Made by a program: the position numbers and the translations under genes. Below the pieces are notes generated by a model. The model was not told where the DNA came from and searched no databases. It was given only the letters and a program-made list of their open reading frames with translations. From a virus, in the IMG/VR virus record IMGVR_UViG_3300035665_000228, positions 1-24,656 of that record: a stretch of 24,656 nucleotides of DNA, one strand, 5' to 3'. Every line of letters starts with the position of its first letter. Position 1 is the stretch's first letter. Below, piece by piece: positions 8,540-23,331 of the stretch.

Positions 8540-9472
8540 ATGCCCACTTTAGGTACACAGAATATCTCGACTAGCTATCCACAGCTTCTGAAGACTTTCG
8601 GGACGGGCGGCTTGGATGGCAATCTTCAGATCATTACAGATGGCGACAATACCTCATCGGCTCTCAGCCTTTCCACCACCGGCGTGCAAAGCACCGGCTC
8701 TTTGGCGGTGGATGGAACCAGCCTTCTGTCCGGCATTGTCACCTTCGGAACCAGCCTAACCGCATCCACTGGAACCGCCACCATCGGGACTCTTTCCGTT
8801 GGAACGGCCACCATCAGCACGGCCACCATCCCTTCCGCAACGCTTTCCACGGCCACCATTTCGACGGCCTCCATCAGCACGGCGACAATCCCGCTTCAGC
8901 TTGGCTCAGTCACATTTGGCTCCAATATCACGGCATCCACAGGAATCGCCACGATTGGAACTTTGTCCGCAAGCACGGCTACGATTTCCACGGCCACCAT
9001 CCCGCTCCAGCTTGGCGCGGTGACGTTTGGTTCCACCATCACCGCTTCCACCGGAACGAACACCCTCGGCACGATTAGCGTAAACACGGCCACCATCGGA
9101 ACTATTACAAACACAGGCGGGATGTCCGTCACAACCACGGCTACGGTTGGAACGCTGGAGATCGGTGCTACCGGTCCTAGCATTACCAATGCCTCCTACG
9201 GAACTGCGGCTTTCTCGCTTTCCACGGTTGCCGCCCACAACGGTGCCGGAACCACCAACGGAACGGTTGCACTTACCGGGGCGCAGAATAGCGATATTGT
9301 TATTGGAACTTTAAACTCATTGGGATCTGCTACCGGATCTTCCGGCTTGATTATCGGCTTTCATTGCATAGCGAACAACGTGGTTCGCTACTCCATCACC
9401 AACCCGACCGGCACTACTGGCACGGTTCCCGCAGGAACCCTGCACATGACCGCATTGAGGTTCACGGCTTAA
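8540..9472 (+). CDS. Repeat-rich tail fibre protein
   Basis: 310 residues, preceded by a strong AGGAGG at 8530-8535. The N-terminal 65 residues (with LLKTFGTGGLDGNLQIITDG) form a cap. Residues about 67-190 are a run of short Thr/Ile repeats of the form T-A-T-I-(S/G)-T, grouped into three larger units that each begin VTFG. The rest is a compact beta domain ending VPAGTLHMTALRFTA. Such repeats build an elongated beta-helix or triple-stranded shaft, with the C-terminal domain as receptor-binding tip. No chaperone or peptidase domain is visible. Neighbours are other fibre-like genes. Confidence 0.7.
   Translation: MPTLGTQNISTSYPQLLKTFGTGGLDGNLQIITDGDNTSSALSLSTTGVQSTGSLAVDGTSLLSGIVTFGTSLTASTGTATIGTLSVGTATISTATIPSATLSTATISTASISTATIPLQLGSVTFGSNITASTGIATIGTLSASTATISTATIPLQLGAVTFGSTITASTGTNTLGTISVNTATIGTITNTGGMSVTTTATVGTLEIGATGPSITNASYGTAAFSLSTVAAHNGAGTTNGTVALTGAQNSDIVIGTLNSLGSATGSSGLIIGFHCIANNVVRYSITNPTGTTGTVPAGTLHMTALRFTA
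8738..9109 (+). repeat. Three imperfect in-frame repeats in the fibre gene
   Basis: Units begin at codons for VTFG at 8738, 8909 and 9020. Units 2 and 3 are separated by 111 bases (37 residues) and share the pattern VTFGS-x-ITASTG followed by ATIGT or NTLGT. Unit 1 is longer because the ACGGCCACCATC-type block, encoding TATIST, is repeated more times in it. This spacing suggests that the shaft length can change by unequal recombination. Confidence 0.8.
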
Positions 9473-9473
9473 T

Positions 9474-10430
9474 ATGGCTATTAAATTCAATCGCTCCCAG
9501 ACCTTTGCCACCAATGGTACGGTGACTGCCGCCGGGCTGCACAACCTGATTGACGGAACAGACATCTATCAGGCGTTGATCACCGACCAGACCAACCTTA
9601 CTTCGGTTGGCTCCGGCGACGAGCTATTGATTGCCGATGCTGATCTGACCGCAAATGACGCGCCTCGCGCCGTTACGGTCAACGAGTTGTTCGAGGATGC
9701 GCTGACGATCAGCACCTACACCAATGCCAATCTTACCAACATTTCCTACGGCACATCGACCGGCACTCGGCTTGTTTCCACCAATGCCTCGATCACGACC
9801 GGCACGATCCAGAATCTTACCTCCAGCACTGCCAACATCACCATCGGAACCATCCCGACCCTAACCGCAGGAACCACGACATCGACCGCCGCCAACATCA
9901 CCAACGGAACGATCCAGACGCTTACTTCAAGCACGGCGACGATCAGTCAAGGTTCTGCAAATTTAACACAGGGAACGATTGCTACGCTAAATTCAACAAC
10001 TGGAACAATTAGCAATTTTACAACTACTTTGGTTGGAGATGTGACCATCAGCACTGGTTCCGCAACTGTTGGAACAAGGGTTGCGGTTGTAAACACGGCG
10101 CAGGAATATACTGCGGCTCATAATTTTAATGCGACAACGCTTGTCAGTGGAAATTCGATAGCTTGGAATTTGCAGTCCAATCAAGTTGCAAGGCTTGTTC
10201 TTTCAACAACTGGAACAATGGCCGACGCAACCAACAAGGTTGACGGAGCTACATACATTCTGCTTGTGACCCAAGGCACTGGATCAAACACGTTGGATTG
10301 GAATGCAACTTATAAATGGCCTGGAGGCACGAAACCAACATTAACTGTTGGTTCAGCCAAGAGTGATATATTTACGTTTGTATCTGATGGAACGAGTTTA
10401 TTTGGTGTAGCGAGTCAAAATTACTCATAA
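9474..10430 (+). CDS. Second repeat-rich tail fibre protein
   Basis: 318 residues. The N-terminus (FNRSQTFATNGTVTAAGLHN, then LIDGTDIYQALI) is a typical attachment domain of small phage fibres. Residues about 106-182 are Thr/Ile/Asn repeats of the form GTI-x-x-LTSSTA. The C-terminal domain ends with ATYKWPGGTKPTLTVGSAKS and DIFTFVSDGTSLFGV, a tip often found in phage fibres. Codon use shifts to AT-rich at about 9945, in the middle of the gene. It shares its repeat style with the preceding gene, and the two may be subunits of one fibre or alternative fibres. Two bases separate it from the previous stop, and no strong ribosome binding site is visible. Confidence 0.75.
   Translation: MAIKFNRSQTFATNGTVTAAGLHNLIDGTDIYQALITDQTNLTSVGSGDELLIADADLTANDAPRAVTVNELFEDALTISTYTNANLTNISYGTSTGTRLVSTNASITTGTIQNLTSSTANITIGTIPTLTAGTTTSTAANITNGTIQTLTSSTATISQGSANLTQGTIATLNSTTGTISNFTTTLVGDVTISTGSATVGTRVAVVNTAQEYTAAHNFNATTLVSGNSIAWNLQSNQVARLVLSTTGTMADATNKVDGATYILLVTQGTGSNTLDWNATYKWPGGTKPTLTVGSAKSDIFTFVSDGTSLFGVASQNYS
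9789..10020 (+). repeat. Thr/Ile-rich in-frame repeat block of the second fibre gene
   Basis: The block encodes about five degenerate units of the type GTIQ-x-LTSSTA-x-I (GTIQNLTSSTANI, GTIQTLTSSTATI, GTIATLNSTTGTI among them). The units are related in pattern to those in the gene at 8540-9472, so homologous exchange between the two genes is plausible. Confidence 0.7.
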
Positions 10431-10434
10431 GAGT

Positions 10435-11337
10435 ATGGCTTGGCCCGTATTTCCAGTTTGCCATCTTGGACCAGGCAGGTTTAGGGGTGTAGGCGGAACA
10501 GTCTCTACAAGTGGATCGTACACGATTCATACATTCACAACTCTTGGAACATTTGAGGCAATCGGCGCAGGCTCAATTGACATTCTTGTTGTAGCTGGTG
10601 GTGGTGGAGGCGGAAAAGATGGTGGATCTGGTGCTGCTGGAGGAGGAGGAGGTGGAGGGCTTGCAGACCAAACAAACCGCACAATCAACAATGGATTTTA
10701 CACAGTAACAATTGGTGCTGGCGGCAGTGGTGCAACTGCAACTGGATCTGGAGCAACTGGAAGCGACTCGACCTTTAATACAATTACTGCCAAGGGTGGT
10801 GGTGGCGGTGGATTTAATGATACAACTGGTTCTGCTGGTGGATCTGGAGGAGGTGCAGCGAGTTTAGGATCTAATAATACAGGAGGATCATCAAACCAAG
10901 CAAACCCAACTGGAGGTGCAACTGGATTCGGAAATAAGGGTGGAAATAAAAGCGGATGGGCGCAACAAGCTAGAGGCGGGGCTGGAGGAGGAGGAGCAGG
11001 AGGAGCAGGCGTTGACCAAACCCTTGTAAACGAAGGAAGTGCTGGCGGTGTTGGTAAAAATTATTCAATTTCTGGAGTATCTACAAATTATTCTGGAGGA
11101 GGAGGAGGCGGAGCGCATTCTGGAGGCGGAAGCACTGCGGATAGGCCCGGCGGCGCAGCAGGAGATGATAGTGCTGGTGCTGGAGGAAGGTCTTCTACAA
11201 CTACCACAAACAATGGTGGAAACGGCGTAACAAATAAAGGAGGTGGTGGAGGAGGAAATGGTGTAAATGGTGGCGGGGCGCAGGGAAATGGTGGCAACGG
11301 AGGTAGCGGAGTTGTGGTTATCCGCTATTTAACATAA
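10435..11337 (+). CDS. Glycine-rich adhesin (receptor-binding protein)
   Basis: 300 residues. After a short N-terminal beta domain (GSYTIHTFTTLGTFEAIGAG, then IDILVVAGG) nearly the whole protein is Gly runs mixed with Ser, Ala, Asn and Thr, and it ends with GGNGGSGVVVIRYLT. This closing motif and the poly-Gly blocks are typical of phage and environmental glycine-rich adhesins. In phage T4-type gp38 adhesins such blocks form polyglycine II helices carrying variable host-contact loops. The gene is AT-rich outside the GGA/GGT codons. It probably forms or caps the fibre tip. It is joined to the next gene by TAATG. No good ribosome binding site precedes ATG 10435. Confidence 0.75.
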   Translation: MAWPVFPVCHLGPGRFRGVGGTVSTSGSYTIHTFTTLGTFEAIGAGSIDILVVAGGGGGGKDGGSGAAGGGGGGGLADQTNRTINNGFYTVTIGAGGSGATATGSGATGSDSTFNTITAKGGGGGGFNDTTGSAGGSGGGAASLGSNNTGGSSNQANPTGGATGFGNKGGNKSGWAQQARGGAGGGGAGGAGVDQTLVNEGSAGGVGKNYSISGVSTNYSGGGGGGAHSGGGSTADRPGGAAGDDSAGAGGRSSTTTTNNGGNGVTNKGGGGGGNGVNGGGAQGNGGNGGSGVVVIRYLT

Positions 11338-15187: not shown

Positions 15188-16714
15188 ATGGCAAGCGTTG
15201 AAGATCTTCGTAAAAAAGTAACAGACTTAAATACAAAACTTTCAGAAATGGAAAGTTTTAGTGTACAAACATCTACATCCAGACAAGCTGCTAAAGCAAG
15301 AAATCCAAGAAGCGGAACAAGAATTACCGGATATGTTGATGTTCCTGTAACAAATGTTCAAAAAAATCCTGAATACGAAAAAACTTTGTCACAGCTTCTT
15401 TCGGCGCAGACCGAATTGCAGGATGCGATCTATAATCGCGAAGGATCATATAATACACTAGCCGAACAAATTGCCGGTCTTACTGGGAGGGATCGACTTG
15501 CCGGAGTTGGTGCTGGATTAAATCAGGCACTCAATCAGCTTGGCTCTGGCAGGAACTATGGCTCGTCAGATCTTGGCTCTCGCCTAAACTTCCAAGTATC
15601 CGACCAGCAGATTGTTGACGATTACAACGCAACCCGCCTCGGTCGCCTTAACCGTATTGCGGAAGACGGAAACTCGCAGATTGTAGGAATTCAGGCGCGT
15701 ATTGATGCGGCCAATCAATTGCTTGAAAGCCTTCCGGCAAAAGATCCCCGCAGAACCTCTGCTCAGGTTTCCATTGACCAGCTAAAGGCAGACCTTGCCA
15801 GCGTGCAGGGTGCGGTAACAAAGGCTGGGCAACAGATCGCCGATTTCAAACCAATCACAACCGCCGACGATGAGGGACTTAAAGAGATCACAGCGTTCCG
15901 TGAATTTATCAAGTTGCCGGAAGAACGTGCTGGCGAACAACTCAAACAGATTGACCCGGAATCCTACAAGACCGCAGTCGGCCTGGGGCAACGCTATCGT
16001 CAGCTTGCGACCGAGGAGTTGCCTGCAACGACGACAGCGCAGACGGAGCAACTTCGCAACACCATCGAGCAGGAAGCACTCAATCAGCTTCGCCTTGGCT
16101 CGACCTTGGGAGCCGAGGAAAGGCGTGGATACGAGCAGGCGGTGCGTGCCGCCCAGACCGCCCGTGGCAACATCTTCGGCCTTGGACCGGCAGTGCAGGA
16201 AGCGGCGCAGATCGGTGCCGCCGGGGAACAACGCAAGCTTGCGCGTTACGGGGCGGCGCAGCAGTTCCTGGCTTCCGGAGAAACGACAGGTGGCGCAGCC
16301 GCCCGTGACCTTGCGCTTCGCGAGGGGTTGACCCAGCAACGCTTGGGCGCGGCTTCCGGTTTCTTGGCCGGTGGACCATCGCTTGCCAACCTTGCACAGC
16401 AACGGCTTGGACAGCAGAACCTTGCGGCGCAGCAGTACATTCAGGCCAATCAGGCATTGCCTGGACAGTTCCAGACCCAAGGTATGCCGCAGCAGTTTTA
16501 TCAAACCTCCAACCCGGCTATCCCGGTTCAGCTTGCAAGCAATGCGGCAAATATTTACAACACCATGTCTGACTATCAGGCTCAGACTTACGGAGCGCAG
16601 ACAAGCGCGATTGCGAGTTCGTATCGTAGCCCCGCCCAAAACTTTGGGGCAGTAGCCAGCGGATTTGGAAGCATTATGGGAGGGTTTGGAAAACTGTTCC
16701 CTAGTGGGTTCTAA
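15188..16714 (+). CDS. Ejection (internal virion) protein, Gln/Ala-rich
   Basis: 508 residues with GGGGAG at 15175-15180 and a 7-base spacer. Mostly helical with many Gln, Ala, Leu and Arg residues and coiled-coil-like stretches (LRKKVTDLNTKLSEMES at the start; NQLGSGR-type Gly breaks; QQRLGAASGFLAGG and LAQQRLGQQNLAAQQYIQA in the second half). No membrane helix or enzyme motif. By position and composition it is an ejection protein of the kind that lines the DNA channel through the cell envelope. The first about 70 codons are AT-rich and differ sharply from the rest; the change is at about 15395. Confidence 0.65.
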   Translation: MASVEDLRKKVTDLNTKLSEMESFSVQTSTSRQAAKARNPRSGTRITGYVDVPVTNVQKNPEYEKTLSQLLSAQTELQDAIYNREGSYNTLAEQIAGLTGRDRLAGVGAGLNQALNQLGSGRNYGSSDLGSRLNFQVSDQQIVDDYNATRLGRLNRIAEDGNSQIVGIQARIDAANQLLESLPAKDPRRTSAQVSIDQLKADLASVQGAVTKAGQQIADFKPITTADDEGLKEITAFREFIKLPEERAGEQLKQIDPESYKTAVGLGQRYRQLATEELPATTTAQTEQLRNTIEQEALNQLRLGSTLGAEERRGYEQAVRAAQTARGNIFGLGPAVQEAAQIGAAGEQRKLARYGAAQQFLASGETTGGAAARDLALREGLTQQRLGAASGFLAGGPSLANLAQQRLGQQNLAAQQYIQANQALPGQFQTQGMPQQFYQTSNPAIPVQLASNAANIYNTMSDYQAQTYGAQTSAIASSYRSPAQNFGAVASGFGSIMGGFGKLFPSGF

Positions 16715-16715
16715 T

Positions 16716-17363
16716 ATGGAAGACGACATCCAGCAGAATATAGAGGACAGGTACGATTACGCGCCTGCCGTAAAAGACCCAGCAGACCCAACTCGCGGAA
16801 CCGTGCGTGGCTTGTTTGGGATGATGACGGGCGAGCGCCAGCAAAAAGTGGCTGCCGCAAGGCAACAGCTTGAGATGCAGGCAAGGGCGCAGCAAGCCAA
16901 CCGCATGAACAGCGCCTATCTACTCCAATCCAAGGTTGAGGAAGATAAATTTAACCGCAAATACCCAAGCATTGATGTTGCCTATGCCGATGGCTCTAAA
17001 ATCAATTTACGCGAACTTGCCAGACAAAATCCAGAATTAGCGGATCAGTTGCTTGCAAGTGAAATGGACCGAGCGGCCAGATTTGCCCAAGTCAAAAAGG
17101 CCAAGGACGATGCCGAGCTTGAGCAGGCCAAGGCCAGAATTGCCTCCGCGCAGACAAAGATTCAGGAGGAGCAGGCCAAGCGGGCGGGGATATTCGGGCT
17201 TGGCGGACCCAATCAGGAAGTTATCGAAAAACAAAAGCGCGACATCGAAAAAGAATCTGAGACCTACGGAATCCCGCTCGGCTCCGAACCAGAGGAAGCG
17301 ACCTCCGAACCAGCAGCCCAAGCGGGCGAAGCATCTTCATGGCTACGCTCAAAGCTGAAGTAA
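16716..17363 (+). CDS. Helical ejection (internal virion) protein, 215 residues
   Basis: ATG 16716 comes one base after the preceding stop; a start 51 bases upstream would lie inside the upstream gene. It has an acidic N-terminus (MEDDIQQNIEDRYDY), a Gln/Ala-rich central helix (AARQQLEMQARAQQANRMNS) and a charged coiled-coil C-terminal half (AKDDAELEQAKARIASAQTK). It overlaps the giant gene by 25 bases. No domain is recognised. Probably a subunit of the ejection complex. Confidence 0.6.
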   Translation: MEDDIQQNIEDRYDYAPAVKDPADPTRGTVRGLFGMMTGERQQKVAAARQQLEMQARAQQANRMNSAYLLQSKVEEDKFNRKYPSIDVAYADGSKINLRELARQNPELADQLLASEMDRAARFAQVKKAKDDAELEQAKARIASAQTKIQEEQAKRAGIFGLGGPNQEVIEKQKRDIEKESETYGIPLGSEPEEATSEPAAQAGEASSWLRSKLK

Positions 17364-20300
17364 CGGACCAAGACGAACCGGTAGTTGAGGTTCCGTCCTG
17401 GGGCGAAGTAAGCTCGCTTCCTGAATTTCAAAACCTTTCCTACCCCGAACAGCGCCGGGTGGCGTTGAGCTGGGCCGAAGACCTTAAGCGCGAGGCTTCC
17501 TATCGTGGCGAGTTCACTGAGGCCGACGCCAAGCAGGTGGATGACTTTGTCGCCTCTGCCGTTCAGCCTGACCTAGAGACCAAAGCCAAGGCCGCCGCCG
17601 AGGGTGTCATCCGTGGCGGGCTGTCCGGCACCGCCGCCACACTTGCCGGACGCGCCGCTTTCTCCCTGCCCCTTCCGGCCATCCCGCGTGCGATTGTTGG
17701 CCTTGGAGCCACCGCAGCCGCACAGGTGGGCGTGGACGAGCTGGCCAGACGCGGGATTGAAAAGTTTGCCCCTGGCCTGACGGAAGCGGCCGAGCTGGCA
17801 CCTGGCTACGCCAGCGGCGGGCAGATTGCGGGCATTGCAGGATCGGCGGGACCGGCGGTGGCACGCACCGCAAAAGCGTTGGGGACGATTGCCAAGGCCG
17901 AGGGCGGCAAGGCCGCCGTCCAGCAGGGCGCAAGGTTGCTGGCACCTGCCGCCGCGATTGGGGCTGGCGTGGACACGGGCTTTCGTGCCATTACGGGACA
18001 GGAAATTACCCCCGGCACGGTTGCCACGGGCGCAATCCTCAACACGCTCTTTGCCGGATATGGAGCCAACACAAGGGTGGCCAACTACACCAGAGACGAG
18101 GCACGCGGGTTGTTTCAGCGGGTGATGGCGGGTAAGGGCAGCCTTAAAGACACCGACGACCTCCTTTCCATCCTTAACCAAATGAAGCAGGAGTCGCCCG
18201 AAGGGATGCCGATGCAGGACTTTGGCCGAGCGCAGAGAGCCACCGTGGATGTGCTGGGCAAGCGTGCGGTGGACAGGACCACGATTGAGCAGCCCACCTT
18301 CCGCACCCCACCAGCGGACGAGGCGGCCATGCTTCCGCCCCGTAGCGGTCCCGACCCCGTTGTGCAACGCACACCAGAACTTCCGCAGGCAGGCGTGCGC
18401 GGGAATGTGCGCGGGACGATGGAAGACACTGGAGAGTTGCAACGTCGCGGCGTCAACACGGAGATGGAGCAAAGCCTTCAGCTTGACCAGCCAGCGCCAA
18501 GAAGGGGCATCTTTACCACCGAATCGCAGGGCATTAACCGCCAAGCTATAATTCCAGACACGCGTGGCTTGCAGGGCGAGCTGGTCAGCGAAGGCCCGAC
18601 CATCACGCCAAGACGGCAGCTGCCGACAACGGAGAGGCTGGCGTTGACGGATGCAAAGACTGAGTCGGCATCAATAGAAAGCCAGCCACAGAAGGCTGGA
18701 AGGGTTAGGGCTGAAGAAGAGTTTGCAAGAGATCCATCCAACCCAGGCATACTAAATGCAAAACCAATAGAAAACATTGGTGAGGCAGTAAAAGACTTAC
18801 GCTCTGCGTTAAGCCTTCCAAGCACGGCTAGGTCAGGCGCCCTTTTTGATTTTTCTCAAAAATACAATACGAGCGCTAGATCGGTAGATGAGTTAGTAGA
18901 GCAAGATTCTTTTGTTAGGAAGTACCAAGAGCTTTCTTCTGGCAAATCCTCTATCCCCCGCCCCTTCGGCAAGAAGGGTGAGGCTGGTATGGTGGCTTCC
19001 GACGTGGTGACGGCACCGGGCAGGGCTTTCAAGACTTTCCTTACTTCCACGGGCGACCTGCCCAAGTCGCTTTTTGACATTGTCGAGGGGCGCAGCTCCC
19101 AAACCCAAGCCATGCTTAAGCAGGTGCAGTTCACCACCCGCGATGTCACGGGCGAGATTAAGAAGGCATTGGCTGGTGTGGCACCCAAGGAGCGCAAGGC
19201 GGCAGAAGCCAAGCTGATGGGGGATGTCAACGCCGTCATCCGTGGCCAAGCCGAGCCGACAACTCTTCCAGAAAACGTGGCTGACGTGGTCGTGCAGATG
19301 CGCCGCCAGTTGGACAACCTTTCCGACGGGCTATTGGCTTCGGGCGTTTTCAGCGAGGAGTTGCCGGTCAAAAGAAATGCGGCTGGCGGCTATGATGTGG
19401 TTGGCCCCAGCCCTGCCCAACGGGTGCGGGAGAACCGTGGCGAGTACTTGACACGCACCTATGAGCGAAATTACAACCCACGGTTCAGCCGCACGGAGTT
19501 GCAGAAGCGTGATCCCGCCAAGTACGCCAAGGCCGAAGCCTTGCTGCGCGATGAGCTAAAGCGGGACAGGCCGGACATCACCGAGCAGGAGATTTCCGCA
19601 GAGCTGGAGCGCATCTCCATGTTTGACAAGGAGCCGTCAACGCCAAGCCAGCAAGTCACGGGGCTGGGCAAGGATCTTGGCATCACCAGGCAAAGAAAGG
19701 ACATCCCGTGGTACCGCCGCTATCTGATGGGCGAGACAACCGACCCGATTGCCAACTACGTCATCTCGACAAGCAAGATGATCGAATTGCTTCAGACCCA
19801 GAGGATGCTTAACTCCATCCGGGCTGATGGGCTTGGCAAGTACCTATTTGAAAAACCTACTGGCGATGCCATCACCCCGATTGCTGCCGAGGGTTCTTCA
19901 ACACTGGCTCCCCTCAACGGGCTTTTCGGCAGTACCCCATTGGTCAATGCGCTTAAGGACGTGGACGCCGCCAGCAACTTTAGCTTACCCGCCAAGGTGT
20001 ACGCCTACATTAATTCCTGGGTCAAGCGGGGCAAGACGGTTCTCAGCGTGCAAGCGCAGTTCCGCAACCCGATTGCCAACATCGCCATTGAGATTGCCAA
20101 CGGCAACCCATTCTTTATTCCGACTGCGTCCAACATCGGAGCGGTGGCCAGGTCGGTAAGATCCATTTGGGCGGATTGGGGGGTTCCGGCGGCACAAAGG
20201 CCGGAATACCGCCAGTATCTCAAAAAGGCCATCCGTTACGGAATTTACGACAACACGGCGTTCAACGAGCTGCGCGACATTGTCAGGGACGCCCAAGGCT

Positions 20301-21664
20301 TCAATGGCGAGGGCATGGAGTTTGCCACGCAGATTCTTGAGAAGGGGCTGAAGCGCTACGCTATGGCTCCCATCCGTGGAGCCGAAAACACCTACAAGGC
20401 CAATGACAACTTTTTCAAGTTGGTGGCCTGGGAGCATGAAATCAAACAGCTCATGGACGGCAGAAAAATCACCCGCGAGGAGGCTGAACCATTGGCGGCC
20501 GAGATCGTCAAGAACACCCGCCCCACCTACTCCCGCGTGCCGCCCCTCATCAAGAAGTGGCGGCAACAGCCCTTCTTTGGAAACTTCATCTCTTGGCCGT
20601 CGGAGATTGTGCGCGGGATGTTCAACATGGCCAAGATTTCCTACGACCAGATCCGCACGCCTGGGATGGAATACTACGGATGGAAACGAGCCTTGCTTGG
20701 GTTGGCCACGATTTCTGGCTTCAGCTACGCCATAGGCAAGCTCGGCCAGATGGCGCACGACATCTCCAACGACAAGATGGATGCGCTACGCCGCTTTGTG
20801 GCTCCTTTCCAGAAAAACTCCGAGCTGATGCCGATTGGCGCGGACGGCGAACAGATCAGCTACATCGACGTTTCCTACACAAGCCCCTGGGAGATTCTGC
20901 ACCAGCCTCTCCGGGCGGCGATGAGCGGGGACAATTTTGAGGAATCTTTACTCAACGCGGGCGCAGAGTTTATCGAATCCTACGCCAGCCCCGGCATCCT
21001 GACGGCGGCGGTGGCCAGCACGATATTCGGGCAAACGCCATCTGGCAGGCGGTTCAGAAATCCCGAAGACCCGCCCGGAGACCAGTTCCTCGACACGGTC
21101 AGCTACTTTATCCGCCAGCTTGAGCCAGCCACGGCCAGCCAGATCCGCAGAAACTACTATGGGTTCACCGGCCAGACCGATCCCCTTCTGTCGGGCTACG
21201 GCAGAGTGTACGACGCGGGGCAGGAGGCGGTGGCTCTGCTCGGCGTTAGGCCGTCCTCCATCAATTATTCAAAAGCGTTGGAAGGCAAGGCATCCAGATT
21301 TAACACTAGGATGTCGGACATCAGCAGAATCTTTACCGAGCAGTACGGCTCAGTCGGCCGCAAGGACTCGGCCAGCATTCAAAGCGCCTTTGGCGCCATG
21401 CAACGCCAGCGTCGCAAGCTGTTCGACGAGGCCAACAAGGACTACCACGCCTCCATGACGCTTGGGCTGACCCGTTCCGAGGCCATCTCGGCCATGCGGG
21501 CCGGGGGCATCTCCGAGGACAACGCCATTGCCATCAGCAAGAACAAGTACACCGACTACCAGATTTCCAGGGATCTGCGCCAGACCATGAAGGAAACGCT
21601 CAAGCCCGATGAGCTTCGCAAGCGCGAGGCCATTGCGCGGGAGCTGAGAATCAGGGAGCGTTAA
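17339..21664 (+). CDS. Giant ejection protein (1441 residues), polyvalent-protein-like
   Basis: The largest gene of the window, overlapping the previous one by 25 bases. Residues about 80-240 are Ala/Gly-rich with several hydrophobic stretches (AAAEGVIRGGLSGTAATLAG, IVGLGATAAAQVGVDEL, LLAPAAAIGAGVDTGF), suggesting membrane insertion. Residues about 330-540 are a variable, Pro/Arg-rich linker with an AT-rich patch. The C-terminal 550 residues form a long helical domain containing FRNPIANIAIEIANGNP, FFKLVAWEHEIKQLM and FFGNFISWPSEIVRGMFNM, a pattern I associate with 'large polyvalent protein' C-terminal domains. No lytic transglycosylase motif is found. A role in DNA ejection through the envelope fits size and position (compare T7 gp16). 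The lysozyme activity seems to be in the next gene. Confidence 0.7.
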   Translation: MATLKAEVTDQDEPVVEVPSWGEVSSLPEFQNLSYPEQRRVALSWAEDLKREASYRGEFTEADAKQVDDFVASAVQPDLETKAKAAAEGVIRGGLSGTAATLAGRAAFSLPLPAIPRAIVGLGATAAAQVGVDELARRGIEKFAPGLTEAAELAPGYASGGQIAGIAGSAGPAVARTAKALGTIAKAEGGKAAVQQGARLLAPAAAIGAGVDTGFRAITGQEITPGTVATGAILNTLFAGYGANTRVANYTRDEARGLFQRVMAGKGSLKDTDDLLSILNQMKQESPEGMPMQDFGRAQRATVDVLGKRAVDRTTIEQPTFRTPPADEAAMLPPRSGPDPVVQRTPELPQAGVRGNVRGTMEDTGELQRRGVNTEMEQSLQLDQPAPRRGIFTTESQGINRQAIIPDTRGLQGELVSEGPTITPRRQLPTTERLALTDAKTESASIESQPQKAGRVRAEEEFARDPSNPGILNAKPIENIGEAVKDLRSALSLPSTARSGALFDFSQKYNTSARSVDELVEQDSFVRKYQELSSGKSSIPRPFGKKGEAGMVASDVVTAPGRAFKTFLTSTGDLPKSLFDIVEGRSSQTQAMLKQVQFTTRDVTGEIKKALAGVAPKERKAAEAKLMGDVNAVIRGQAEPTTLPENVADVVVQMRRQLDNLSDGLLASGVFSEELPVKRNAAGGYDVVGPSPAQRVRENRGEYLTRTYERNYNPRFSRTELQKRDPAKYAKAEALLRDELKRDRPDITEQEISAELERISMFDKEPSTPSQQVTGLGKDLGITRQRKDIPWYRRYLMGETTDPIANYVISTSKMIELLQTQRMLNSIRADGLGKYLFEKPTGDAITPIAAEGSSTLAPLNGLFGSTPLVNALKDVDAASNFSLPAKVYAYINSWVKRGKTVLSVQAQFRNPIANIAIEIANGNPFFIPTASNIGAVARSVRSIWADWGVPAAQRPEYRQYLKKAIRYGIYDNTAFNELRDIVRDAQGFNGEGMEFATQILEKGLKRYAMAPIRGAENTYKANDNFFKLVAWEHEIKQLMDGRKITREEAEPLAAEIVKNTRPTYSRVPPLIKKWRQQPFFGNFISWPSEIVRGMFNMAKISYDQIRTPGMEYYGWKRALLGLATISGFSYAIGKLGQMAHDISNDKMDALRRFVAPFQKNSELMPIGADGEQISYIDVSYTSPWEILHQPLRAAMSGDNFEESLLNAGAEFIESYASPGILTAAVASTIFGQTPSGRRFRNPEDPPGDQFLDTVSYFIRQLEPATASQIRRNYYGFTGQTDPLLSGYGRVYDAGQEAVALLGVRPSSINYSKALEGKASRFNTRMSDISRIFTEQYGSVGRKDSASIQSAFGAMQRQRRKLFDEANKDYHASMTLGLTRSEAISAMRAGGISEDNAIAISKNKYTDYQISRDLRQTMKETLKPDELRKREAIARELRIRER

Positions 21665-22566
21665 TGGCCATTTTCCGCACCAACCCTAGCCGAGACGTGC
21701 TGACCCCGCAGATGCGCGAGGCCATGTACGCACAACTGGAGAACCGCATGAGAGACGATGCCATTGAAGACGAAATCCAACCCGACATCCCCCTGCCCCA
21801 GCCTGTCGGGGAACCGCCCGTGGCTGGCAGGCCACGGCGAAAGATGATCGACTTCCCCGGCGGGATGGCCACTCCGGCTGACCCAGCCAGCGCAGGTTAC
21901 GAACCCGGCCAGCCCACCATGACGCCCGATGCCTCTCTCGACCTGCTTAAGCGGGAAGCCAAGGACAAGCTGGATGCACTACCCTCCTCGCCTATGCGTG
22001 GCATCGACTCCTCCTCCACCCAAGACCCGTTGATCGAAACGGCTCTTAAAAACACGGTTAAGTGGGAGGGCAGAACGGATCGGCAGGGCAACCTAGTGGT
22101 CTATAATTTGCCCAGCGGCGATGATGGCGGAACCTATGAAATTGCCGGGATCAACAACCGCTATCACCCGCAGGCCGCCAAGGAGATTGCCGCCCTGCCT
22201 CCAGGGCAACGCGCCCTAGCGGCCGCCAAGTATATCCGAGCCTACACCGCACCGCTGGTGAACCAGCTACCAGCAGAGATGCAGGGTTTTGCTCAAGACC
22301 TAGCCTTTCACCGTGGGCTGGCTGGGGCAACCCGACACATTCAGCAGGGGCTGGCCGACATGGGCCTTGACATCCGCCCCGATGGAGTGATCGGACCCAA
22401 AACCTTGGCTGCCCTAAATGACGCCAACCTTCGGGAAGTCAAAAAAAGAGCAATCGTTTCTTATTTGAACACCGAACAGGCCAGAGCCGAAGCAAATCCA
22501 GAAAGAAGAAAATTTTTGCCAGGACTAGAAAACAGGGCGCGGAACCTTTTGGCAGCGTTTGGCTAG
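21664..22566 (+). CDS. GH108-like peptidoglycan hydrolase with N-terminal extension
   Basis: 300 residues, TAATG overlap with the giant gene and AGGGAG at 21653-21658. The catalytic-type domain spans about residues 122-257: VKWEG with candidate catalytic Glu135, GGTYEIAGINNRYHP, then the helix FAQDLAFHRGLAGATRHIQQ, and the peptidoglycan-binding-like segment DGVIGPKTLAALNDAN; the end FLPGLENRARN matches the usual C-terminus of such enzymes. The first 120 residues are an extra Pro-rich, probably disordered region (IQPDIPLPQPVGEPPVAGRP). No signal peptide. It is either the endolysin or a virion-carried lysozyme; coupling to the ejection genes favours the second. The stop shares the palindrome CTAG with the converging gene. 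Confidence 0.75.
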   Translation: MAIFRTNPSRDVLTPQMREAMYAQLENRMRDDAIEDEIQPDIPLPQPVGEPPVAGRPRRKMIDFPGGMATPADPASAGYEPGQPTMTPDASLDLLKREAKDKLDALPSSPMRGIDSSSTQDPLIETALKNTVKWEGRTDRQGNLVVYNLPSGDDGGTYEIAGINNRYHPQAAKEIAALPPGQRALAAAKYIRAYTAPLVNQLPAEMQGFAQDLAFHRGLAGATRHIQQGLADMGLDIRPDGVIGPKTLAALNDANLREVKKRAIVSYLNTEQARAEANPERRKFLPGLENRARNLLAAFG

Positions 22567-22913
22567 GGCTTAATGGTTATACCATCACCGATGACAAACA
22601 CGGTATTGCCCTCATTATCAAAATAAGCCTCACCGACGCTGATGCCGGTTGTGCTTCCATAAAAAAGGTCTTTGTCCTGAGTAACAATCCCACGCTCTCC
22701 CCAAGTCACATCGCCGTTCTGCCCATAGTAGCCGTTAGGGGTAATAAATCCCGTGCCATCGTCAATAATGGGGCCGTCGGCCGTAATGATCATATCAGGA
22801 GCAACCTTGACGCCAGACTCCCCGTAAACTCCTCCAACAAAATTTTCGATGTCTCCGGCCATACAACGGCTGGCCATCACCAGCACCGCCATTAGGAATA
22901 GTATTGCTTTCAT
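22563..22913 (-). CDS. Small secreted protein on the opposite strand (moron candidate)
   Basis: 116 residues from the ATG at 22913 (minus), preceded by GGAG at 22923-22926 with a 9-base spacer; an ATG 18 bases earlier lacks this. A clear signal peptide (MKAILFLMAVLVMASRCMAG) with likely cleavage after CMA or CMAG precedes a 95-residue Gly/Asp/Ile-rich mature part. Two related stretches, YGESG followed by IITADGP and YGQNG followed by IVTQDKD, suggest an internal duplication of about 33 residues. The Cys before Met-Ala is not in a lipobox, because Arg precedes it. It is the only minus-strand gene and could act in the periplasm or outside the cell during infection. The role is unknown; antireceptor, exclusion or host-fitness functions are options. 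Confidence 0.75.
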   Translation of the reverse strand: MKAILFLMAVLVMASRCMAGDIENFVGGVYGESGVKVAPDMIITADGPIIDDGTGFITPNGYYGQNGDVTWGERGIVTQDKDLFYGSTTGISVGEAYFDNEGNTVFVIGDGITIKP

Positions 22914-22950
22914 GCGTAAAAACTCCAGCATCTGCGCCGTCTAGTCAAGC

Positions 22951-23331
22951 ATGAAATTATCCGCCAGACAAATAGGTGCAGTCGGCGTGGCCCGTGTGGC
23001 CGGTGCGCTGTTCCGCAACGGGTATAGCGTGCTGACCCCGATGGAGGATTTTTCCAGCTACGACCTGGTGGCCGAGCGCAACGGGAAGTTTCACCGCATC
23101 CAGATCAAGACCACCAGCAAGCCGGAACACGACAAGCTTCATTATCGTTTTATGACAAGTTCCGGGCATCAGGGGAAAGTGATGTACACCAAGGCCAGGG
23201 TTGATTATATTATTTGCTGGGCGATGGATGAGGATTTATTCTGGATTCTAAAGCCGCATGAATGTCGCTCCACCACCAAGAAGTTTTACCCAAAGTCAGG
23301 TTCCTCATGGCGAATCATAAACGATCTCTGA
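22951..23331 (+). CDS. PD-(D/E)XK endonuclease-like protein
   Basis: 126 residues. The core is SSYDLVAERNGKFHRIQIKT: an Asp followed about 11 residues later by Q-I-K, the active-site pattern D...(E/Q)xK of the PD-(D/E)XK fold (compare the I-Ssp6803I-like PDDEXK_5 group, where the second acidic residue is replaced by Gln). An upstream helix (ARQIGAVGVARVAGALFRNG) matches the first core helix. Possible roles are a Holliday junction resolvase or a homing-type nuclease. No strong ribosome binding site precedes ATG 22951. It starts 37 bases from the divergent secreted-protein gene and overlaps the next gene by 25 bases. Confidence 0.65.
   Translation: MKLSARQIGAVGVARVAGALFRNGYSVLTPMEDFSSYDLVAERNGKFHRIQIKTTSKPEHDKLHYRFMTSSGHQGKVMYTKARVDYIICWAMDEDLFWILKPHECRSTTKKFYPKSGSSWRIINDL
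22956..22961 (-). promoter_or_regulatory. Candidate -10 box for the minus-strand gene
   Basis: On the minus strand the sequence GATAAT matches the -10 consensus in five of six positions. It lies 42 bases upstream of the ATG at 22913. A weak -35 (CCGACT, three matches) lies 18 bases further upstream. It falls inside the start of the + strand nuclease gene, so expression of the two genes may interfere. Low confidence. Confidence 0.3.

Follow-up and report, generated by a model that had tools for sequence, protein, structure and literature searches.

Our analysis of the window, by which we mean the whole 24,656-nucleotide stretch of viral DNA, centres on a leftward gene for a small exported protein and on the genes that border it (Table 1). 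The reading frame is free of internal stops and comprises a signal peptide and a 96-residue mature domain. At the 3' end its stop overlaps the end of the convergent muramidase gene by 4 nt; 37 bp separate its start from the divergent nuclease gene. A second in-frame ATG stands at 22931, and relatives with different upstream DNA retain the 22913 start only. Between the window and its relative L003 the mature region gives dN 0.009 and dS 0.44 (dN/dS 0.02), while over all pairs of relatives with the same type of mature domain the median dN/dS is 0.10 and no pair exceeds 1; this constraint at the codon level indicates that the frame is coding. The original prediction, that there is a real gene here with its own ribosome binding site (the GGAG read at 22926-22923) and the only one on the minus strand in 24.6 kb, is thus borne out, in that the frame is intact and constrained and the other sizeable minus-strand frames of the window overlie plus-strand genes, leaving this as the only credible one. 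Its further description as an exported, independently oriented gene at the border between late and DNA-metabolism genes is supported as well. In G005, a near-complete relative (within L172), several further small leftward ORFs lie at 34869-37105, which makes it probable that such genomes have minus-strand genes besides that of the window.

The gene had also been credited with a possible promoter, and here the claim stands only in part. A TTGAC that could serve as a -35 element is conserved in nearly all relatives, but no good -10 follows it, and a promoter scan of the window returned zero sigma-70 sites on the minus strand. The same TTGAC also stands directly upstream of the start of the divergent nuclease gene. 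Because of these three points a promoter of the gene's own is likely rather than proven, and we regard the TTGAC as a candidate element.

Table 1. Features at and around the exported-protein gene, in window coordinates.
Feature	Position	Strand	Evidence or remark
g26, small virion-cluster gene	16716..17363	(+)	also covaries with mature type
g27, large internal virion (candidate ejection) protein	17339..21664	(+)	phrog_22602 3e-29; covaries with mature type
Module differing between window and relatives L005/L006	16596..22878		flanks 93-95% identical DNA
Muramidase/endolysin-like gene, C-terminal peptidoglycan domain, convergent	21664..22566	(+)	PF09374 2.1e-7; phrog_315 5.8e-10
Exported protein gene	22563..22913	(-)	116 aa; homologues and purifying selection
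Exchangeable mature domain, type 11	22566..22856	(-)	helix at the N-terminus, followed by short beta strands at ~7-residue spacing
Signal peptide, codons 1-19, MKAILFLMAVLVMASRCMA	22857..22913	(-)	synonymous-site conservation in relatives; usual crossover zone
Recombination junction of window copy	22878..22879	(-)	sequence comparison; ~18 nt earlier than usual crossover
Ribosome binding site GGAG	22923..22926	(-)	9 nt before ATG; read from sequence
TTGAC, candidate -35 element	22944..22948	(-)	~37 nt before ATG in nearly all relatives
Free-standing PD-(D/E)XK nuclease gene, PDDEXK_5, I-Ssp6803I-like, divergent	22951..23331	(+)	PF11645 E=7.7e-18; PDB 2OST E=1.5e-6

The candidate status of g27 as an ejection protein reflects its position, its size and one PHROG match. 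The g26 frame opens at 16665 with a TTG that overlaps the end of gene 25, the ATG at 16716 being the likelier start. The nuclease has both the PDDEXK_5 fold and the D...QxK motif, and among PDB entries its profile matches only I-Ssp6803I, which makes a homing-type driver possible. It belongs to the same family as that enzyme (PDB 2OST), with the difference that its gene is free-standing rather than within a group I intron. Elsewhere in the window, inside the late cluster, a methyltransferase-like gene is found at 2112-2642 (PHROG match; Methyltransf_24 in G005).

How widespread is such a gene? Whole-family protein profiles proved too variable for locus searches, and relatives were therefore collected by three other routes: a protein search (16 viral loci), a search with 28 nt of signal-peptide DNA (a single copy in each of 46 contigs, always where the exported gene begins), and a search with the nuclease of a second lineage (165 loci, the best 80 of which were kept). 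Among those best 80 of 165, the divergent exported gene is present in 79, and the remaining locus is cut by a contig end. In all, 130 viral loci were used, 120 at full length; of the shorter ones, most are cut by a contig end. The exported gene occurs in 130/130, always in the same place, convergent with the muramidase gene and divergent from the I-Ssp6803I-like nuclease gene. Presence at one locus in all 130 argues against a sporadic insertion, so the original reading as a moron candidate is, in the strict sense of that term, unsupported: this is a core gene, in which exchange is confined to the mature half. That prediction had also turned on whether the frame is broken in close relatives, and there the frames are open; the end is shortened in L026, and probably in L065 too. 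The L026 copy (2335-2613, type 4) has a deletion that lies between repeats and ends out of frame, which leaves 93 aa counted from the conserved start; repeat collapse or an assembly error may be the cause. The homologue check that had been proposed gave no homologue in phage and plasmid collections, and bacterial genome contigs gave no relative with the two queries used, the 28-nt signal-peptide core and a terminase profile. The large terminase of G005 (L172:17904-19325) is closest to those of Akkermansia phages, at 35-37% identity and clearly above other matches, a sequence similarity that hints at Verrucomicrobiota hosts.

The signal peptide, as read from the sequence, is predicted to end CMA/GD, and in the window and most relatives the predicted cleavage site is followed by Gly, Asp or Glu, not Cys. 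The mature domain of the window copy is acidic (pI 4.05) and has neither a hydrophobic segment nor Cys. AlphaFold models the window protein with pLDDT 82.6, mostly above 90 in the mature part, and a repeat-rich type represented by L017 with pLDDT 86.2; the two models agree on an N-terminal helix followed by 11-12 short strands, about one every seven residues. An internal duplication had been proposed on the strength of two YG(E/Q)(S/N)G motifs. The motifs are real (residues 30 and 63 of the window protein; 0 of 20,000 shuffles), but they belong to a 14-residue repeat that is strong over the whole family (z=19) and of which the window copy, taken alone, keeps remains that are not significant (p=0.2). 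The statement that the protein belongs to no recognised family agrees with our searches of Pfam, PHROGs and PDB sequences: the window protein has no Pfam or PHROG match, none is common to the 25 family members scanned, and its matches among PDB sequences are noise. Foldseek found no match at E<=0.001 in PDB or BFVD, and the best VIA-align Z scores, 4.8 and 5.4, lie within the range that unrelated models give. The absence of a significant structural neighbour does not establish a new fold.

Clustered at a 50% threshold, the mature domains fall into 15 types, with median identity of 90% within a type and at most 48% between types. Six types are common to both lineages, where they are joined to different signal peptides. 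Pairs of relatives show that the exchange goes in both directions. In L029/L018 and L019/L026 the flanks are mostly 90-100% identical (on both sides in the former pair) while the mature part is at background; L053/L047 present the reverse case, with a mature part 80-96% identical between two diverged flanks. The 5' breakpoints cluster about 55 nt from the ATG, near the signal-peptidase site, and in 71 of 86 pairs they fall in the interval from 50 to 69 nt; those 3' breakpoints that can be measured are few and lie about 20 nt past the stop. The mature domain thus occurs as discrete types, each under constraint, that are exchanged close to the signal-peptidase boundary. By sequence comparison the window copy, too, has arisen by recombination: from 22878 rightward the window is about 95% identical to other phages, leftward it diverges from them, and its mature part resembles that of L003, whose signal peptide differs. 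Movement of the 6-kb module in one piece is ruled out as the sole mode, since the mature part has also been swapped alone.

The signal-peptide DNA is conserved beyond what the protein needs. In lineage 2, which was sampled without regard to signal peptide, 7 of the 9 fourfold sites in this segment are invariant, the corresponding share for the nuclease gene being 9%. Such conservation could arise from homogenisation by frequent crossover, or the DNA could be a site that is bound or cut. Lying beside the crossover zone, the nuclease is, to judge from its family, a possible driver of mature-domain exchange.

Does the type of mature domain go with anything else in the genome? In the long contigs of 29 relatives, g27 proteins of lineage 2 are 78% (61-98) identical when the mature type is the same and 37% (30-45) when it differs; g26 behaves alike (83% vs 27%), and the muramidase tracks the type in part (93 vs 57). 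Gene 25 (61 vs 56), the tail genes (48 vs 46) and the nuclease (98 vs 95) have no such association. The tail-region genes (8540-11337) and gene 25 (15188-16714) are about 45-60% identical between relatives, independent of mature type. In a common subset of 30 genomes the AUC is 0.925 for the muramidase C-terminus, 0.938 for the g27 C-terminus, 0.964 for the g27 N-terminus, 0.979 for g26 and 0.566 for the nuclease, so that the association does not decay with distance. The nuclease, only about 0.1 kb away, has almost none (AUC 0.58 vs 0.56 permuted). For the 596 pairs with muramidase C-termini at least 85% identical, divergent g27 C-termini (<45%) occur in 4% of the pairs of one type and in 61% of those of different type; permuting the labels within lineage, which does not model the full tree, gave a mean of -1.2 (sd 5.1, maximum 20 in 2000 permutations) against an observed difference of 38.2. 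When the nuclease is also required to be at least 95% identical, the figures are 2% and 56%. These matched pairs imply that g27 and the exported-protein gene, which lie on opposite strands, change jointly across an intervening stretch that does not. At this level of muramidase similarity the g27 N-terminus carries no information (AUC 0.48, from 14 different-type pairs only).

At the sequence level, then, mature type is statistically tied to the gene for a large internal virion protein. The tie is not a strict one-to-one pairing, which is ruled out by g27 clusters holding several types: one is common to types 0, 4 and 7, another holds eight types, and types 0 and 4 swap beside the same g27 (89-93% DNA identity). 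Part of the link could reflect co-transfer of neighbouring DNA.

What might such a protein do? We tentatively favour a periplasmic superinfection-exclusion protein matched to the ejection machinery of its own phage, a function proposed from sequence to which we assign somewhat less than an even chance. During infection the protein would be expressed from the opposite strand and then secreted, placing the mature beta-repeat domain in the periplasm. There, when a phage of the same type arrives, it would bind that phage's trans-envelope ejection apparatus (g27, perhaps g26 or the N-terminal part of the muramidase), and DNA injection would fail. Phages of rare type would escape, and selection would thereby favour many types and their exchange. 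The earlier suggestion that the gene acts on the host rather than the virion fares well to this extent, the infected cell being plausibly the target and the protein not a virion part. A fuller version, which with all its parts we consider speculative and on the whole unlikely, is one of multi-allelic exclusion, in which the constant signal-peptide DNA would be the splice point for at least 15 mature domains, the nuclease would perhaps cut or aid repair, each domain would exclude phages with the matching ejection protein, and frequency-dependent selection would keep the diversity across lineages.

Other explanations of the same data must be weighed. Ejection proteins also touch the host envelope, and the exported protein might instead be an envelope modifier fitted to a variable host component (a receptor, porin, surface polymer or periplasmic defence factor), with the g27 link arising from a shared host strain or from co-transfer. 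The block from g26 through g27 and the muramidase to the mature part can indeed move as a unit, as it has in the window, and the mature part can be swapped alone with g27 unchanged. However, the tail-cluster genes, where receptor specificity would be expected to reside, do not covary with mature type, and two phage lineages have types in common; we find this account rather unlikely. Linkage and shared ancestry alone, with some unrelated periplasmic role and diversity supplied by a recombination hot spot, would suit the adjacency of the genes, and the silent-site conservation of the signal-peptide DNA together with a homing-type nuclease could make such a spot. Against this stand the constancy of the intervening muramidase C-terminus while both genes switch, which persists when relatedness is matched through the nuclease, and the near lack of association in the nuclease itself, so that we rank this account low, just after the muramidase inhibitor considered next.

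Inhibition of the adjacent muramidase, stopping lysis from without or penetration by a superinfecting virion, has the precedent of T4 Spackle, which inhibits the gp5 tail lysozyme (PMC7677548). The muramidase gene is the convergent neighbour, and its C-terminal part does track mature type to some degree (AMI 0.42); yet g27 is tracked better (AMI 0.58; partial 0.29 vs 0.10), and muramidases 97-98% identical stand beside different mature types, which makes an inhibitor of this kind improbable. A regulator of lysis timing or lysis inhibition, acting as an antiholin-like periplasmic sensor, would fit a gene with an export signal beside a lysis-like gene, its diversity being incidental. It does not explain why constrained types should be so many or be linked to an internal virion protein, and we give it very little credence. 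Arbitrium-like signalling was rejected, the mature part being about 100 aa and the adjacent nuclease showing no covariation.

What is at hand is a phage gene built from a constant signal peptide and an exchangeable mature domain, which in more than 100 natural loci, over two lineages and many swaps, switches together with an internal virion protein, making matched specificity directly testable. The question extends beyond these phages, as the authors of the SieA study found it hard to understand how an interaction between exclusion and ejection proteins is kept up despite the diversity of both (PMC10883804).

Among known systems, P22 SieA appears by analogy to be the closest in function. The sieA gene adjoins ejection gene 16, its three types are about 25% identical (under 30%), and SieA targets the ejection conduit, mutations that escape it mapping to C-terminal parts of gp16 and gp20 (PMC10883804). 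Both genes thus lie beside an ejection-protein gene (a candidate in our case) and come in several divergent types. SieA, however, is a multi-pass inner-membrane protein expressed from a prophage and has three types, whereas the window protein is predicted to be cleaved, looks like a soluble beta protein without a hydrophobic span, and belongs to a family in which a constant signal peptide is joined to mature domains of at least 15 types. Since SieA types only 24% identical share one specificity (PMC10883804), diversity as such does not prove matched specificity. T4 Spackle (gp61.3) is periplasmic and acts when a superinfecting phage penetrates the wall (PMC7677548); like the window protein, for which cleavage and a periplasmic location are predicted, it is a small periplasmic phage protein with a cleaved signal peptide, but it is an alpha-helical bundle with a disulfide, in contrast to a modelled beta repeat with no Cys. 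Ltp of Streptococcus phage TP-J34, likewise exported and repeat-containing, is an exclusion protein that stops DNA injection (PMC3952083); its target is reported to be the tape measure protein (PMC3952083 and its reference list). Ltp is a lipoprotein encoded in the lysogeny module of a temperate phage of Gram-positive hosts, while the window protein has no lipobox Cys at +1. The window protein therefore departs from each of SieA, Spackle and Ltp in at least one of the defining features tested, and we suggest as the best explanation, by analogy, that it works like P22 SieA or T4 Spackle while being related, by those features, to neither.
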